NCBI RefSeq assembly: GCF_001598915.1
Contig: NZ_BDAP01000004.1
Span: 372,001-436,000 of the forward strand
DNA length: 64,000 nucleotides
Reading direction: 5' to 3'
Origin: Williamsia muralis NBRC 105860
GTDB taxonomy: Bacteria; Actinomycetota; Actinomycetes; Mycobacteriales; Mycobacteriaceae
In this document: piece after piece, positions 1-51,123 of the stretch
Layout: each line of letters opens with the position of its first letter
Position numbering within the stretch: position 1 is the stretch's first letter
Made by a program: the position numbers and the translations under genes
Notes under the pieces: model-generated
What the model was told of the DNA's origin: nothing
Database searches by the model: none
Seen by the model: the letters and a program-made list of their open reading frames with translations, nothing else

Positions 1-433
1 AATACGGCTGCCTGCGCCGGTCGGTGGGCGAGCCGGGATTGAGTAGACGCAGACCCGTACCCGTCGTGGTGTCCCACGGGATGTGGCTGTGACCGAACAC
101 CAGGACATCGGTGTCGGGGTACGCGACCGACATCCGTTTCTCCCGACCCACTGATGCGCCGGTCTCATGCGTGACCGTGAAACGCAGCCCGCCGAGGGTC
201 ACATCGGCGCGCTCGGGCATGCGTGACCGCAGATCAGGGCCGTCGTTGTTCCCCCAGCACGCGATCAGTCGTTTCGCCCGACGCTCGAGTGCTTCGAAGC
301 TTGCCAGGTCGACCCAGTCACCGGCGTGGATCACCACATCGGCCCGGTCGACTTCATCCCACACGACCGCGGGAAGGTCTTTGGCGCGCTTGGGGATGTG
401 GGTGTCGGCCAGCAGCAACAGTTTCACGACCAC
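1..433 (-). CDS. YfcE/MJ0936-type metallophosphoesterase, 3' end cut by window edge
   Basis: The minus strand reads an open frame from a GTG at 433 (or the in-frame GTG at 427) to the window edge, about 144 residues without its C-terminus. The N-terminus reads LLLLADTHIPKRA, followed by HAGDW, GNND and FGHSH. These are the metal-binding blocks (D-x-H, G-D, G-N-H/D, G-H-x-H) of calcineurin-like phosphoesterases of the YfcE group, which hydrolyse phosphodiesters in the cytosol. The third block has GNND where GNH is usual, as in several YfcE proteins. A short inverted repeat (GAACG-TT-CGTTC, 481-492) lies just upstream. The family is clear and the substrate is unknown. Confidence 0.8.
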   Translation of the reverse strand, partial: MVVKLLLLADTHIPKRAKDLPAVVWDEVDRADVVIHAGDWVDLASFEALERRAKRLIACWGNNDGPDLRSRMPERADVTLGGLRFTVTHETGASVGREKRMSVAYPDTDVLVFGHSHIPWDTTTGTGLRLLNPGSPTDRRRQPY

Positions 434-46083: not shown

Positions 46084-46824
46084 ATGGCCGGGCCAGACCT
46101 CGTCGAGCCAGGTCCCGGGGCGTCTCGGAACCGCGCTCTGTTCCTGGTGCATGATCACGACCGGGACCGCGGCGTCGCCGACACGGGCACCCTGCGCGAC
46201 CACGTCATCGACCGGGGCTACGACGTCGACATCGTGCACCCTTCCGGAGATCTACCGGAGGTGGCAGGGTTCGATTTTGTTGTCGTGATGGGTTCTTCGG
46301 AAGCGGCATACAACGACTCGGTCCCATGGCTGGCGGCCGAGATCAGCTATCTGCGGGCTGCGCTCGCCGCAAACGTACCGATTCTCGGGGTGTGCTTCGG
46401 TGGCCAGCTGCTCAGCCGGGTTCTCGGCGGCAAGGTCAAGCGGTCGGACCAGCCCGAACACGGTTACGTCACCGTCGACACCGTCGCGCGCGAACTGGTC
46501 GCACGCGGACCGTGGATGCAGATGCACTACGACCGATTCACCCTCCCGCCCGGTGCTCGCGAGATCGCCCGCAACGGAGCAGCGTTGCAGGCCTTCACCT
46601 TTGGCCGGAATCTGGGCGTTCAGTTCCATCCGGAGATCTCACCCGCGGTGTGGGCCACCTGGCAGGCGAGCTGGGCCGCCAACCGTCAGGGTCAACTGGT
46701 CGTCGAACGCGGTATCGACCTGGACAAGATCACGGCCGAGATCACCGCTCGCGCGGCTGAATCGAGAGAGAACTGCGCGACCTTGCTCGACGCCTTCCTG
46801 AAACTGGCTCACGCACCGGTGTAG
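46084..46824 (+). CDS. type 1 glutamine amidotransferase domain protein
   Basis: 246 residues from the ATG at 46084 (a GTG at 46081 is also in frame); no clear ribosome site. VPILGVCFGGQLLSRVLGG holds the nucleophile Cys, and LGVQFHPEISPAVWATW the catalytic His and Glu of class I amidotransferases. MGSSEAAYNDSVPWLAAE precedes. It is a stand-alone glutaminase-type domain, like the GMP-synthase-like family of unknown substrate. Its 3' end overlaps the convergent lipase gene by 16 bp. The 260-bp gap upstream shows no gene or clear signal. Confidence 0.85.
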   Translation: MAGPDLVEPGPGASRNRALFLVHDHDRDRGVADTGTLRDHVIDRGYDVDIVHPSGDLPEVAGFDFVVVMGSSEAAYNDSVPWLAAEISYLRAALAANVPILGVCFGGQLLSRVLGGKVKRSDQPEHGYVTVDTVARELVARGPWMQMHYDRFTLPPGAREIARNGAALQAFTFGRNLGVQFHPEISPAVWATWQASWAANRQGQLVVERGIDLDKITAEITARAAESRENCATLLDAFLKLAHAPV

Positions 46825-47768
46825 GGCGGCACGGCCAGGCAGGGAACGGTTCGGGGATGCGCGGGATCGAGGGCGTTGAGCACAAACGCCGAACTGCGCT
46901 GGTTGGACACGATCGACAGATGATCTGAGCGGTCCTGTGAGCACGTGTCCTGCACAACGATGTTGGTGACCTCGATGCCGGGCGGCCCGGCCAGGATGCC
47001 GCTGGTGTACGGGGTCACGAGCTGGTCGTAGCGGGTGACGATGTTCGTGTAGTCGATGCCCGCGACGTAGGGGCCATCGGGGGCATCGATGGCCGCCGCG
47101 AAGTCACCGTCGCCGGGTGCGGCGGTGCAGTCCGGGCATTCGGTCTCGGGTACCGCAGCGGGCGGCAATCCTAATCGGTCGGCAAACATCTTCACCAACT
47201 CCGACCGGCCCTCGCCGTCGCCGTCCGACCCCTGCCAGTACGGCGCGAGGGACACATACTTGTCGATCTTTCCCGCGCCCCCGTAGTACTTCGCCCAATA
47301 GGTCGGGATCTGTGTGCCCTGCGAATGACCCACGATGTCGACCTGTGCGGCGCCCGTCTTCGCCAGCACGTCGTCGACGAACACCTTGAGCTCCCAGGCG
47401 CTGACGTCCTTGGCGCCCAGCCCGCCGATCCGCGACAACGGCCACTGCTGCGACAACTCGCCATAGGTGAGCGCGAACACGCAGTAACCCTCGTTCTTGA
47501 GCACCGGCACCAGCGAGATCCAGTTGGTCTGCTGACTGCCCGCGGTGCCGTGGACCAGTACCACCGGATCGGGGTGCTGAGCAGACGGCTTGCATGCGTA
47601 ATCGTTGGACCCGGGCAGCGAGCCATCCGGGTTGGCGAGTTCGGCGGGTATGCCGGCCAGGAAGTTGTACTGCACCGGCAGCGGAGCCGCCTGCGCGCTC
47701 GGCGCCGGCCCGACGGTTGCCAGACCGACCAGGACCGCTGTCACCAACGCCTGCTTGAACCACCGCAT
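46809..47768 (-). CDS. secreted lipase/esterase
   Basis: 319 residues with an N-terminal signal peptide (MRWFKQALVTAVLVGLATVG, likely cut after AQA at residue 27). VLVHGTAGSQQTNW is the oxyanion region and VGHSQGTQ contains the nucleophile Ser 149. Paired Cys in the C-terminal part (CPDC, CSQD, CLAV) may form disulfides, as expected outside the cell. The family resembles the Lipase_2 class of triacylglycerol lipases. It probably releases fatty acids from extracellular lipids. It is monocistronic. Confidence 0.9.
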   Translation of the reverse strand: MRWFKQALVTAVLVGLATVGPAPSAQAAPLPVQYNFLAGIPAELANPDGSLPGSNDYACKPSAQHPDPVVLVHGTAGSQQTNWISLVPVLKNEGYCVFALTYGELSQQWPLSRIGGLGAKDVSAWELKVFVDDVLAKTGAAQVDIVGHSQGTQIPTYWAKYYGGAGKIDKYVSLAPYWQGSDGDGEGRSELVKMFADRLGLPPAAVPETECPDCTAAPGDGDFAAAIDAPDGPYVAGIDYTNIVTRYDQLVTPYTSGILAGPPGIEVTNIVVQDTCSQDRSDHLSIVSNQRSSAFVLNALDPAHPRTVPCLAVPPYTGA

Positions 47769-47828: not shown

Positions 47829-48920
47829 CTACGGGTCGGGCGGAATGTCTTCCGTGGGCATCACCAGATCAAGACGCACCCCCAACAACCGGATCGGGCG
47901 GTCGAGCTCGAACTTGTGCAGCACCTCGAGCATCGCCACCTCGATCACGGTGGCGTCGGTGGTCGGGGCGGGCAGCTTCTTCGACTTCGTCCGGGTGTAG
48001 AACGTCATGGTCCGTACGGTCACGGCCACCCGGAAAGCCACCCGCCCCTCAGACATGACCTGCGCCAACAGTTCCCGGGTCAGCTTCCGAATCGCCTCGT
48101 CGATGTCGGCGCGGGCGGTGAGGTCGGTCGGGAAGGTCTCGACCTTGCTGTGCGACCGCGGAATGTACGGCTCGGCGCTCACCTCGATGTCACCGCCACC
48201 ACGCGAGAGCAGGTACAGCCAATTGCCGAGGTGGGGTCCGAACTCGGCCACCAGCCGCCCGACATCCTCTGCCGCAAGCTGGGCAACGGTATCGATCCCC
48301 AGCTTCTCCAGTTTTGCTGTCGTCTTGGGTCCGACGCTCCAGAGGTCGCCGACACCGCGCTCCCCCATGATGGGCATCCAGTTCTGGTTGTCCAGGGTGA
48401 AGACGTGCTCGGGTGAGCGTTTGGCGAATCCGGTCGCCATCTTGGCGCGCTGTTTGTTGTCGCTGATGCCGACCGCCGACGACAGCCCGCGCTCATCGAG
48501 AATCCGCTGTCGCACGGACTGGGCCAGCTCGGTGATGTCGAGACCGGTCTCCGACGCCGGAACGCCCAGGAACGCCTCATCCCACCCGATCACCTCGACG
48601 GGATATCCGAAGTCTCGAAGCGTCTGCATCACCTCCGCCGATGCCTCGTCGTACGACGTGTGGTCCAGGGGCAGATAGATCGCCTCGGGCATCTTGCGAT
48701 ATGCCGACCGCAACGGCATACCGGCGCGTACCCCCTGATCACGGGCCTCGTACGACGCGCACGTGACGACCTTGCGCGGTTCGGTCGGGTCACCGGTCCC
48801 GCCGACGATGACCGGTGTGCCGATCAGGTCCGGGTTCCGGCGACGCTCCACCGACACCTGGAACTGGTCCAGGTCGACGTGCAGGATCGCGCGGAAGCGC
48901 CGGATCGGTGGTGTGGTCAT
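47829..48920 (-). CDS. dinB: Y-family DNA polymerase, DinB2-like, with Gln at the steric gate
   Basis: 363 residues from the ATG at 48920; the longer upstream frame is unlikely. HVDLDQFQVSVE carries catalytic Asp 16 and Asp 18; GWDEAFLG holds Asp 114 and Glu 115. At the position of the steric-gate Phe of E. coli DinB, Gln 21 is found. Mycobacterial DinB2 has Leu there, which permits ribonucleotide use. GISDNKQRAKMATGFAK and GVGDLWSVGPKTTAKL (helix-hairpin-helix) fit DinB2, and PTDLTARADIDEAIRKL belongs to the little-finger domain. No clamp-binding motif is obvious at the C-terminus. It copies damaged DNA. Confidence 0.9.
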   Translation of the reverse strand: MTTPPIRRFRAILHVDLDQFQVSVERRRNPDLIGTPVIVGGTGDPTEPRKVVTCASYEARDQGVRAGMPLRSAYRKMPEAIYLPLDHTSYDEASAEVMQTLRDFGYPVEVIGWDEAFLGVPASETGLDITELAQSVRQRILDERGLSSAVGISDNKQRAKMATGFAKRSPEHVFTLDNQNWMPIMGERGVGDLWSVGPKTTAKLEKLGIDTVAQLAAEDVGRLVAEFGPHLGNWLYLLSRGGGDIEVSAEPYIPRSHSKVETFPTDLTARADIDEAIRKLTRELLAQVMSEGRVAFRVAVTVRTMTFYTRTKSKKLPAPTTDATVIEVAMLEVLHKFELDRPIRLLGVRLDLVMPTEDIPPDP

Positions 48921-49024: not shown

Positions 49025-49156
49025 CCCGATTTAATCGGGCCACTATTTCCGCATTGTGAAATAGGTTGTTGATGTCCAGGGGGAACCGCACCGACCAACG
49101 GGCCAAATCCGATTGGTTCTGCTGTGCAGCAATGTATTTCGTCGCACATACGAAAT
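49025..49156 (+). other. hairpin-rich leader before the ABC/LLM operon
   Basis: The 323-bp gap 48921-49243 holds three perfect inverted repeats with 7-bp arms. They are CCCGATT/AATCGGG (49025-49039), CTATTTC/GAAATAG (49043-49064) and ATTTCGT/ACGAAAT (49136-49156). A shorter one, TTCGG-C-CCGAA, lies at 49167-49177. They lie on the side of the SBP gene. They could be operators or a structured RNA leader; no known riboswitch core was recognised. Confidence 0.5.
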
Positions 49157-49243
49157 GGTGCCGGTCTTCGGCCCGAAACGGCGGCCCTTTTCCCGGGCCC
49201 GAGTCGATCGCGCCTCGACACCGAACAGATGAAAGGAAAAGCA

Positions 49244-50317
49244 GTGAGTCACAAACACCCATGGCGGGTCCGCATCGCGGCAGCGCTGGCACTTCTCGTG
49301 GGGGTGACGACTGCCGCCTGCGGCTCCGCCGACGAGGCCACCGTCACCGCCGACGGCAAGACCGAGCTGCGGTACCTCAGCTTCCCCGCCACTGTTCAAT
49401 TCCCGGAATTGGCAGCCGATCTCGGGTACTTCACCAAGGTCAGCATCAAGGCGGTCGGCGAGACCACCAGCGGCCCGCAGTCGATCCAGGCCGCCGCGAC
49501 TGGCGACACCGATTTCGGGCACGCGTTCAACGGAGCCATCGTCAAGCTGGCGTCAGCGGGTTCACCGATCACCGCCGTCGTCGATTCCTACGGCGCCGAT
49601 GAGAAGACATTCAACGGGTTCTATGTCCTGGAGGACTCCCCGATCCGCACCGCGCGGGACCTGATCGGCAAGAAGATCGGGATCAACACGCTGGGGGCGC
49701 ACTCGGAGTTCGTCATTCGCGAATGGCTTGCCCGTGAGGGACTTTCGAAGGACGAAATCGCGTCGGTCCAGCTGCTGGTGGTGCCGCCGATCAACAACGA
49801 GTCCTCGCTGCGTCAAGGTCAGATCGATGTCGGCGCGTTCAACAGCATCTTCCAGCAGCGCGCGCTGGAGAACGGCGGGATCCGGGAGCTGTTCACCGAC
49901 AGGATCTTCGGCGACTTCAGCTATGGCAGCTACGTGTTCCGTGACGACTTCAAGAAGAAGAACCCGGAGGCCGTGAAGGACTTCGTCCAGGGCACCGCCC
50001 GGGCGATCCGATGGACGCAGGTGACTCCACAGGCAGAGGTTGTCGCACGTTTCAAGGACATCATCACCAAGCGTGGTCGAGGCGAGGATCCCGCTCTGGC
50101 CGAGTACTGGAAGAGCTCGTCCATCCCCACGCCGGGCGGGGTTATCAAGCCCGAGGAGTTCCAGCTGTGGATCGATTGGCTCGTGCGCAACAACGAGCTC
50201 GACAAGGGCAAGCTGACACCGCAGGACATCTTCACCAACGACGACAACCCGTACGCCGACGGCACCTACCAGCCGGACTCGGGGCCTGACGGCGCACCGG
50301 TGGTGGCAGCGAAATGA
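49244..50317 (+). CDS. ABC transporter substrate-binding lipoprotein (SsuA/NrtA/TauA type)
   Basis: 357 residues from a GTG at 49244 with AAAGGA before it; an ATG at 49229 is also in frame. The N-terminus is a lipoprotein signal (WRVRIAAALALLVGV and lipobox TAAC). The mature protein has the periplasmic-binding fold of the sulfonate/nitrate/taurine group, with LSFPATVQFPELAADLGYF, IQAAATGDTDFGHAFNGA and IGKKIGINTLGAHSEFVIREW. It feeds the permease and ATPase encoded next. Sulfonate-type import is inferred from family and the DszA-like enzyme downstream. Confidence 0.9.
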   Translation: MSHKHPWRVRIAAALALLVGVTTAACGSADEATVTADGKTELRYLSFPATVQFPELAADLGYFTKVSIKAVGETTSGPQSIQAAATGDTDFGHAFNGAIVKLASAGSPITAVVDSYGADEKTFNGFYVLEDSPIRTARDLIGKKIGINTLGAHSEFVIREWLAREGLSKDEIASVQLLVVPPINNESSLRQGQIDVGAFNSIFQQRALENGGIRELFTDRIFGDFSYGSYVFRDDFKKKNPEAVKDFVQGTARAIRWTQVTPQAEVVARFKDIITKRGRGEDPALAEYWKSSSIPTPGGVIKPEEFQLWIDWLVRNNELDKGKLTPQDIFTNDDNPYADGTYQPDSGPDGAPVVAAK

Positions 50318-51123
50318 CGACTCCCAAACTGGAATTGCGCGGGGTGCGCAAGTCGTTCACCGCGCCGGGCAAGCCCGAGTTCGTGGCCATCGACGACATC
50401 AGCATCTCTGCGGCCGAAGGCGAGTTCCTTGTCCTCGTCGGCCCCAGCGGCAGCGGGAAGTCCACCCTGCTCGACCTGGTCGGTGGCCTCACCAAGCCCA
50501 CTGCGGGTGAGATCCTGCTGGACGGAAAGCCCATCACCGGACCAGGACTGGACCGGGGCGTGGTGTTCCAGCAGTACGCGCTGCTGCCATGGCGCACGGC
50601 CCGCGCGAACGTGGAGTTCGGCCTCGAGGCCAAGGGCATCTCGCGTCGCCGGCGCAAGGCCATCGCCGATGAATACCTCGGACTCGTCGGTCTCGGCAAC
50701 TTCGGCGACCACTACCCCCACGAGTTGTCGGGTGGCATGAAACAGCGTGTGGCGATTGCGCGCAGCCTCTCGTACGACCCCGAAGTGCTGCTGATGGACG
50801 AACCATTTGCCGCACTCGACGCCCAGACCCGCGAGGGGTTGCAGGGCGAGCTCCTGCGGATCTGGAAGGCCACGGGCAAGACCATCCTGTTCATCACCCA
50901 CGGCATCGACGAGGCCATCTATCTCGGCAACCGGGTTGCCATCCTCACCGAACGCCCCGGTCGGATCAAGGAGATCCTGCCGATTGACATCGACCGGGAT
51001 GCTGTCGACGACATCCGTTCATCTGAGCAGTTCCGCGACTACCGGCACCGGATCTGGCTCTCGTTGCGTCCCGAGGTGGCCGGTGCCGCCGCCGAAACGA
51101 TCGGAGTGGGTAGCCATGTCTAG
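50314..51123 (+). CDS. ABC transporter ATPase (SsuB type)
   Basis: 269 residues; the ATG at 50314 overlaps the SBP gene by four bases. VLVGPSGSGKSTLLDLVGGL is Walker A, LSGGMKQRVAIARSL the ABC signature, EVLLMDEPFAALDAQTR Walker B and D-loop, and FITHGIDEAIYLGNRV the switch region. It belongs to the SsuB/TauB/NrtD group. It powers the import of the substrate bound by the neighbouring lipoprotein. It overlaps the permease gene by eight bases. Confidence 0.94.
   Translation: MTTPKLELRGVRKSFTAPGKPEFVAIDDISISAAEGEFLVLVGPSGSGKSTLLDLVGGLTKPTAGEILLDGKPITGPGLDRGVVFQQYALLPWRTARANVEFGLEAKGISRRRRKAIADEYLGLVGLGNFGDHYPHELSGGMKQRVAIARSLSYDPEVLLMDEPFAALDAQTREGLQGELLRIWKATGKTILFITHGIDEAIYLGNRVAILTERPGRIKEILPIDIDRDAVDDIRSSEQFRDYRHRIWLSLRPEVAGAAAETIGVGSHV

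Follow-up and report, generated by a model that had tools for sequence, protein, structure and literature searches.

The sugar choice of Y-family DNA polymerases has been understood in terms of two kinds of gate, aromatic (closed) and aliphatic (open), to which a widespread natural glutamine adds a polar class. A 64,000-nucleotide stretch of the genome of Williamsia muralis NBRC 105860 (hereafter the window) encodes a DinB2-like polymerase with such a glutamine, raising the questions of whether this residue truly occupies the gate, how common it is among relatives and what it might mean for the choice between ribo- and deoxyribonucleotides. The features concerned are the following:

47829..48920, minus strand: dinB2-type gene coding for a Y-family DNA polymerase of 363 amino acids (Pfam IMS and IMS_C; NCBIfam NF002883; AlphaFold superposition)
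48873..48875, minus strand: Asp16, the first of the metal-binding aspartates, unchanged across 46 aligned sequences
48858..48860, minus strand: CAG codon of Gln21 at the steric-gate position, that of Leu14 in M. smegmatis DinB2 (phmmer alignment, superposition)
48759..48761, minus strand: codon of Cys54, which aligns with Cys47 of M. smegmatis DinB2 (replaced by Thr in PDB 6jum and 6jun), the inferred "polar filter" position
48576..48581, minus strand: acidic pair Asp114-Glu115, invariant in 46 aligned sequences (alignment A1)

The gene and its gate residue

The protein matches both the IMS and IMS_C domains, scores 513.1 bits against NF002883 (PRK03352, DNA polymerase IV), above the curated cut-off of 330, and is 97% identical to the protein of a W. 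muralis record. Its reading frame starts at the ATG at 48920, which is found at the same place in 9/9 genomes of the genus group (Williamsia); starts further upstream, where the frame is open to a GTG at 49292, were ruled out, as the DNA before this ATG varies between species. A promoter scan predicted a single site, lying within the gene. With the LexA-type SOS box consensus, no box with up to 2 mismatches was found between 48920 and 49250, and the window as a whole has 9 such boxes versus 4.2 expected, a number reached by 2 of 100 shuffles. The gene is flanked by a class 2 lipase-like alpha/beta hydrolase (46809-47768, minus strand) and, divergently, by genes for an NMT1-type substrate-binding protein and an ABC transporter ATPase (49124-51123, plus strand); the domains of these neighbors point to no tie with repair. 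A mobile origin was rejected: at E<=1e-40 the protein hits 6 of 72,556 plasmid records, and at E<=1e-5 68 of 50,697 phage records, all with less than 60% identity, the best among the 15 phage matches listed reaching 34%.

Among solved structures the nearest are those of M. smegmatis DinB2 (4dez and the 6ju series), matched at E about 1e-130. In the phmmer alignment with 4dez, HVDLDQFQVSVE of the window protein pairs gap-free with HVDLDQFLASVE, which places Gln21 opposite Leu14; the same alignment pairs Asp114 with Asp107, for which a D107A mutant was made in the founder paper (Ordonez et al., PMC4176160; this and the other PMC articles are cited throughout from the accessible part of their text). 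The window protein is without the founder's leucine at the gate, a residue that is not clade-defining, because the founder paper also terms isoleucine and valine homologs DinB2-like (PMC4176160). The earlier note had equated Gln21, with its CAG codon on the minus strand, with the steric-gate Phe13 of E. coli DinB. Its choice of residue is upheld by the gap-free pairing with Leu14, and Gln21 lies five residues past Asp16, just as E. coli Phe13 does with respect to Asp8 (PMC4176160). Superposing the AlphaFold model (mean pLDDT 93.6) on 6jul matched 347 residues, model 8..357 versus chain 1..347, with Z 40.5 and rmsd 1.8 A; on Dpo4 1jx4 model residues 10..354 matched 1..341. These superpositions give range ends only, which fit Leu14 and Dpo4 residue 12 as partners of Gln21 on the assumption of an ungapped course before residue 21. 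The E. coli rows (4ir1, model residue 6 on 0; 4r8u, 7 on 2) would need an N-terminal gap to match Phe13, and because they do not give Phe13 gap-free, the E. coli equivalence is taken from the motif spacing.

Distribution and descent of the glutamine gate

To survey the gate we used a family sample of 151 genomes, evenly drawn and including the 9 genus-group genomes, in which a match at about E<=1e-60 was counted as DinB2-like. Conservation of the glutamine in the genus, raised as a question in the earlier note, is complete (9/9 genus-group genomes), and together with its presence in 42 of the 88 DinB2-like proteins of the family sample this confirms that glutamine at the gate is real and beyond chance. 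It is the commonest gate residue of the sample (33 of 79 when our own genus group is set aside), followed by Ile (21), Leu (19) and Val (5), with one protein, L227, unreadable. Glutamine occurs in 10 genus codes and leucine of the Cys/Ser type, named for the residue in the Cys47 column, in 3. It is fixed in codes g1 (9/9), g9 (8/8), g18 (8/8) and g22 (9/9), which are respectively Williamsia, Gordonia, Williamsia and Nocardia by way of proteins identical to named records; W. sterculiae and W. maris bear the name Williamsia yet stand under other genus codes than the genus group. Code g29, taken as Mycobacterium because its proteins group with named Mycobacterium proteins, has seven Leu and two Gln. 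The order sample (150 genomes, overlapping the family sample; E<=1e-55) contributed 46 matches (Ile 20, Gln 13, Leu 11, Val 2), with 5 of the 13 Gln proteins coming from outside the family. The phylum sample (396 genomes, E<=1e-60) yielded 36 matches, 14 within the family and 22 outside; the 16 of these 22 that were read have Ile (11), Val (3) or Leu (2), all with Thr in the Cys47 column and none with Gln.

A Gln-motif scan of genome contigs recovered at least 117 loci, though it is uninformative on proportions because Gln was its selection criterion. The 117 that were read include 109 DinB2-like proteins carrying Gln and Cys, from Nocardia (59), Mycobacterium, Mycolicibacterium or Mycobacteriaceae (19), Gordonia (15), Williamsia (13) and, with one each, Aldersonia, Millisia and Kitasatospora; locus L074 is incomplete at its end, and 7 loci were discarded as polymerases for want of a match to the window protein. 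The Kitasatospora locus (L126, recorded under K. arboriphila NRRL B-24581) has a DinB2 that is cut by the locus end and, over the available part, 99% identical to the window protein. Kitasatospora belongs to a different family, Streptomycetaceae, and the assembly is probably contaminated or mislabelled. The claim of the earlier note that mycobacterial DinB2 enzymes have leucine at the gate is correct for some, such as that of M. smegmatis, and has to be narrowed in view of the 19 mycobacterial loci with Gln among the matches listed, which include M. deserti, M. tusciae, M. moriokaense, M. gastri and M. persicum.

For the phylogenetic analysis 222 distinct proteins were reduced to 199 (>300 residues, E<1e-80) and these to 85 representatives (80% identity, same gate), to which the solved DinB2 and four DinB1/DinB3-like proteins were added, and a maximum-likelihood tree of the 90 rows was computed with the gate and filter columns removed. 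All Cys/Ser-type proteins lie within a 55-row clade (support 100/99; Gln 43, Leu 10, Val 2, the last with Thr), to which both the window protein and the DinB2 of M. smegmatis belong, apart from the DinB1-like and DinB3-like rows, bearing out the earlier description of the window protein as DinB2-like. The gate needs 13 changes on the whole tree. Under an equal-rates model the base of the 55-row clade is assigned Leu at 0.84, the ancestor of Nocardia, Gordonia, Williamsia and Mycobacterium Gln at 0.98 (node support 89/96) and the ancestor of the Mycobacterium DinB2 proteins Gln at 0.94, values that lean on the Gln-enriched sampling of the motif scan. A single origin of Gln was rejected by the AU test, both for all 43 Gln representatives (p 6e-5) and for the 41 that remain without two of family code f4 (p 8e-4).

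A second tree, of 28 Mycobacterium rows (one genome being present as two) and 7 outgroup rows, likewise computed without the gate column, places the Leu proteins including M. smegmatis in one group (91/92) next to Gln proteins, and nested within this Leu group is a Gln group comprising M. gastri, M. persicum, M. innocens and M. ostraviense (100/100). At least two changes are needed, both forced by well-supported branches; the deepest Mycobacterium fork is weakly supported (84/89). In this reconstruction the leucine of M. smegmatis DinB2 appears derived amid Gln proteins, with Gln regained near M. gastri and M. persicum. The usual codons, CAG for 158 of 162 Gln and CTG for 17 of 24 Leu (loci counted with repeats), differ by one base. 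That Leu and Gln interchange on trees free of the gate column, through codons one base apart, suggests that the two residues do similar work.

Surroundings of the gate and companion polymerases

The column of Cys47 in M. smegmatis DinB2 and Cys54 in the window protein is presumably a second sugar check, a "polar filter". The PDB contains the Leu14Tyr, Cys47Thr and double mutant forms of M. smegmatis DinB2, and a review names the absence of a polar filter as a possible cause of the low selectivity of pol eta (PMC7084774). In the family sample all 42 Gln proteins have Cys in this column, the remaining pairs of gate and filter being Leu/Cys (13), Leu/Ser (1), Leu/Thr (5), Ile/Thr (21) and Val/Thr (5); the gate of the 56 Cys/Ser-type proteins is thus Gln in 42, Leu in 14 and aromatic in none. 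We attribute the pairing of Gln with Cys largely to shared descent. An independent-pairs test of linked gate and filter change was not significant, and because the independent pairs are too few the pairing is not to be called co-adaptation. Within these 56 proteins the gate is one of 22 two-residue columns (minor residue at least 5 times) and the sole one with Leu and Gln; column 157 (Gln 38, Leu 16, His 2) and four further columns with both residues at least 5 times indicate that Leu/Gln variation as such is not confined to the gate. Columns 66 (Ala/Ser) and 301 (Thr/Lys) split the Cys/Ser type from the Thr type without exception in the family sample, columns 166, 304, 306 and 352 do so at 0.87 or more per side, and columns 53 and 54 also separate the two.

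The genome has four Y-family matches: the window DinB2, a DinB1-like protein (L002) with Phe at the gate, a DinB3-like one (L001) with Tyr, both names being assigned by gate and similarity, and a weaker match (L004). Canonical DinB (Pol IV, DinB1) has an aromatic gate, and the window protein falls outside this definition with Gln in place of Phe or Tyr. The aromatic-gated L002 and L001 have Gly and Ala in the Cys47 column, where Thr is accordingly not general among aromatic-gated enzymes; since both are without Thr, the column by itself is no predictor of selectivity. RNase HII is encoded in this genome and in 14/14 control genomes, which makes it weak support for ribonucleotide use.

Sugar choice and comparison with known systems

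For the rNTP-using DinB2 of M. smegmatis, sugar selectivity in manganese is 2.7 to 3.8 fold (Ordonez et al., PMC4176160). Its Leu14Phe change squelches rNTP fill-in and lowers dNTP use less, and Leu14Ala has no effect on rNTP fill-in, so that small side chains appear to leave the gate open. M. smegmatis DinB1 and DinB3 are sugar-selective, and DinB1 gains rNTP fill-in through Phe23Leu and less of it through Phe23Ala (PMC4176160). According to work cited in PMC10159617, M. smegmatis with reduced dinB2 dosage becomes sensitive when dTTP is limiting.

We consider it probable that the window enzyme accepts rNTPs like M. smegmatis DinB2, that is, that Gln is permissive; the absence of both an aromatic gate and Thr in the filter column favors such an open gate. 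The poor sugar discrimination that the earlier note suggested is plausible and would be the preferred reading. The gene product would be the Williamsia DinB2, a DNA polymerase working on a template in translesion synthesis or gap filling, with its sugar gate open. The side chain of Gln is smaller than those of Phe and Tyr, and flexible, and Gln21 would occupy the site where these would run into the 2'-OH of an rNTP; the presumed second check would also be missing, with Cys54 for the Thr of Ile/Val-gated relatives. Insertion of rNMPs as well as dNMPs could allow gaps to be filled when dNTPs are scarce. Both the permissiveness of Gln and this cellular role are inferred, and it counts against them that mutagenesis by overexpressed DinB2 in M. 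smegmatis is independent of rNTP use (PMC10159617).

A polar residue might also close the gate: were the Gln amide to lie over the deoxyribose C2', rNTP discrimination would be restored and the Gln branch would be sugar-selective again. The glutamate gate of A-family polymerases, to which such closure would be likened, sits in an unrelated polymerase fold, which weakens the parallel. This glutamate is nonetheless a functional gate (PMC4176160), a point against openness and for closure; moreover, Gln is fixed in g1, g9, g18 and g22 as if selected, and its retention over Leu in most of the group hints that it may act otherwise than Leu. Yet the Leu/Gln exchange in Mycobacterium points to similar function and DinB2 Leu14Ala remains open (PMC4176160), and we regard closure as unlikely. 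Alternatively, Gln could hydrogen-bond the incoming 2'-OH or 3'-OH, with rNTPs accepted or favored, so that its ribo-polymerase activity would exceed that of the Leu form. The chemistry of the Gln side chain is compatible with such a bond, for which Cys54 instead of Thr leaves room, and the 10 genus codes with Gln versus 3 with Cys/Ser-type Leu would suit it; the computed data do not separate it from a merely open gate, and we hold it to be distinctly improbable. The wider proposal, in which Gln was the usual DinB2 gate of Nocardia, Gordonia and Williamsia and of the first Mycobacterium, 2'-OH bonding made these enzymes active ribonucleotide users and the Leu form is derived, with more than one switch, seems to us improbable as a whole. 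Neutral drift, by which Gln would have no effect on sugar choice in a little-used enzyme, might be read from the Gln/Leu variation of column 157 and from dinB knockouts, including dinB2, that grow normally and are not more sensitive to several DNA-damaging agents (summarised in PMC4176160). It is very hard to credit: the gate of the 56 proteins has solely Gln or Leu, even though a single base change in CAG would also give His, Arg, Pro, Lys or Glu, and the acidic residues are among the 61 of 343 columns that show no variation.

A full-text literature search, with subscription papers mostly beyond its reach, found no report of Gln as a natural DinB2-like gate, the residues given being Leu, Ile and Val, and no enzymology of a Gln gate; the word glutamine is absent from the accessible main texts of PMC4176160 and PMC10159617, and a report elsewhere in print is possible. 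The observation is correct and reaches further than the earlier note could tell. It concerns a polar-gated DinB2, whose sugar choice is at present a prediction. The natural Leu/Gln switches among relatives make the effect of the gate testable by single-residue swaps. Should the Gln gate prove open, ribonucleotide use within DinB2 would extend far past the Leu enzymes; should it prove closed, part of the clade would have regained sugar selectivity by a new route.

A-family DNA polymerases differ from the Y-family in fold and family. They too have a polar, non-aromatic gate, Glu (PMC4176160), and the statement of the earlier note that a polar Gln is unlike both the Phe and the Leu gates holds among Y-family gates. 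The Ile/Val-gated actinobacterial DinB homologs (Ordonez et al. 2014, PMC4176160) belong to the same larger clade and likewise have a non-aromatic gate, but they are 44-49% identical to the window protein, have one residue fewer just ahead of the filter column and carry Thr in it (26/26 in the family sample) where the window protein has Cys54. Closest is M. smegmatis DinB2 (MSMEG_2294; MsDpo4 in PDB 4dez and 6jul), which shares with the window protein the clade, the ungapped active-site surroundings, the acidic residues, the cysteine (47 there, 54 here) and a non-aromatic gate, and differs from it in having Leu14 where the Williamsia enzyme has Gln21.
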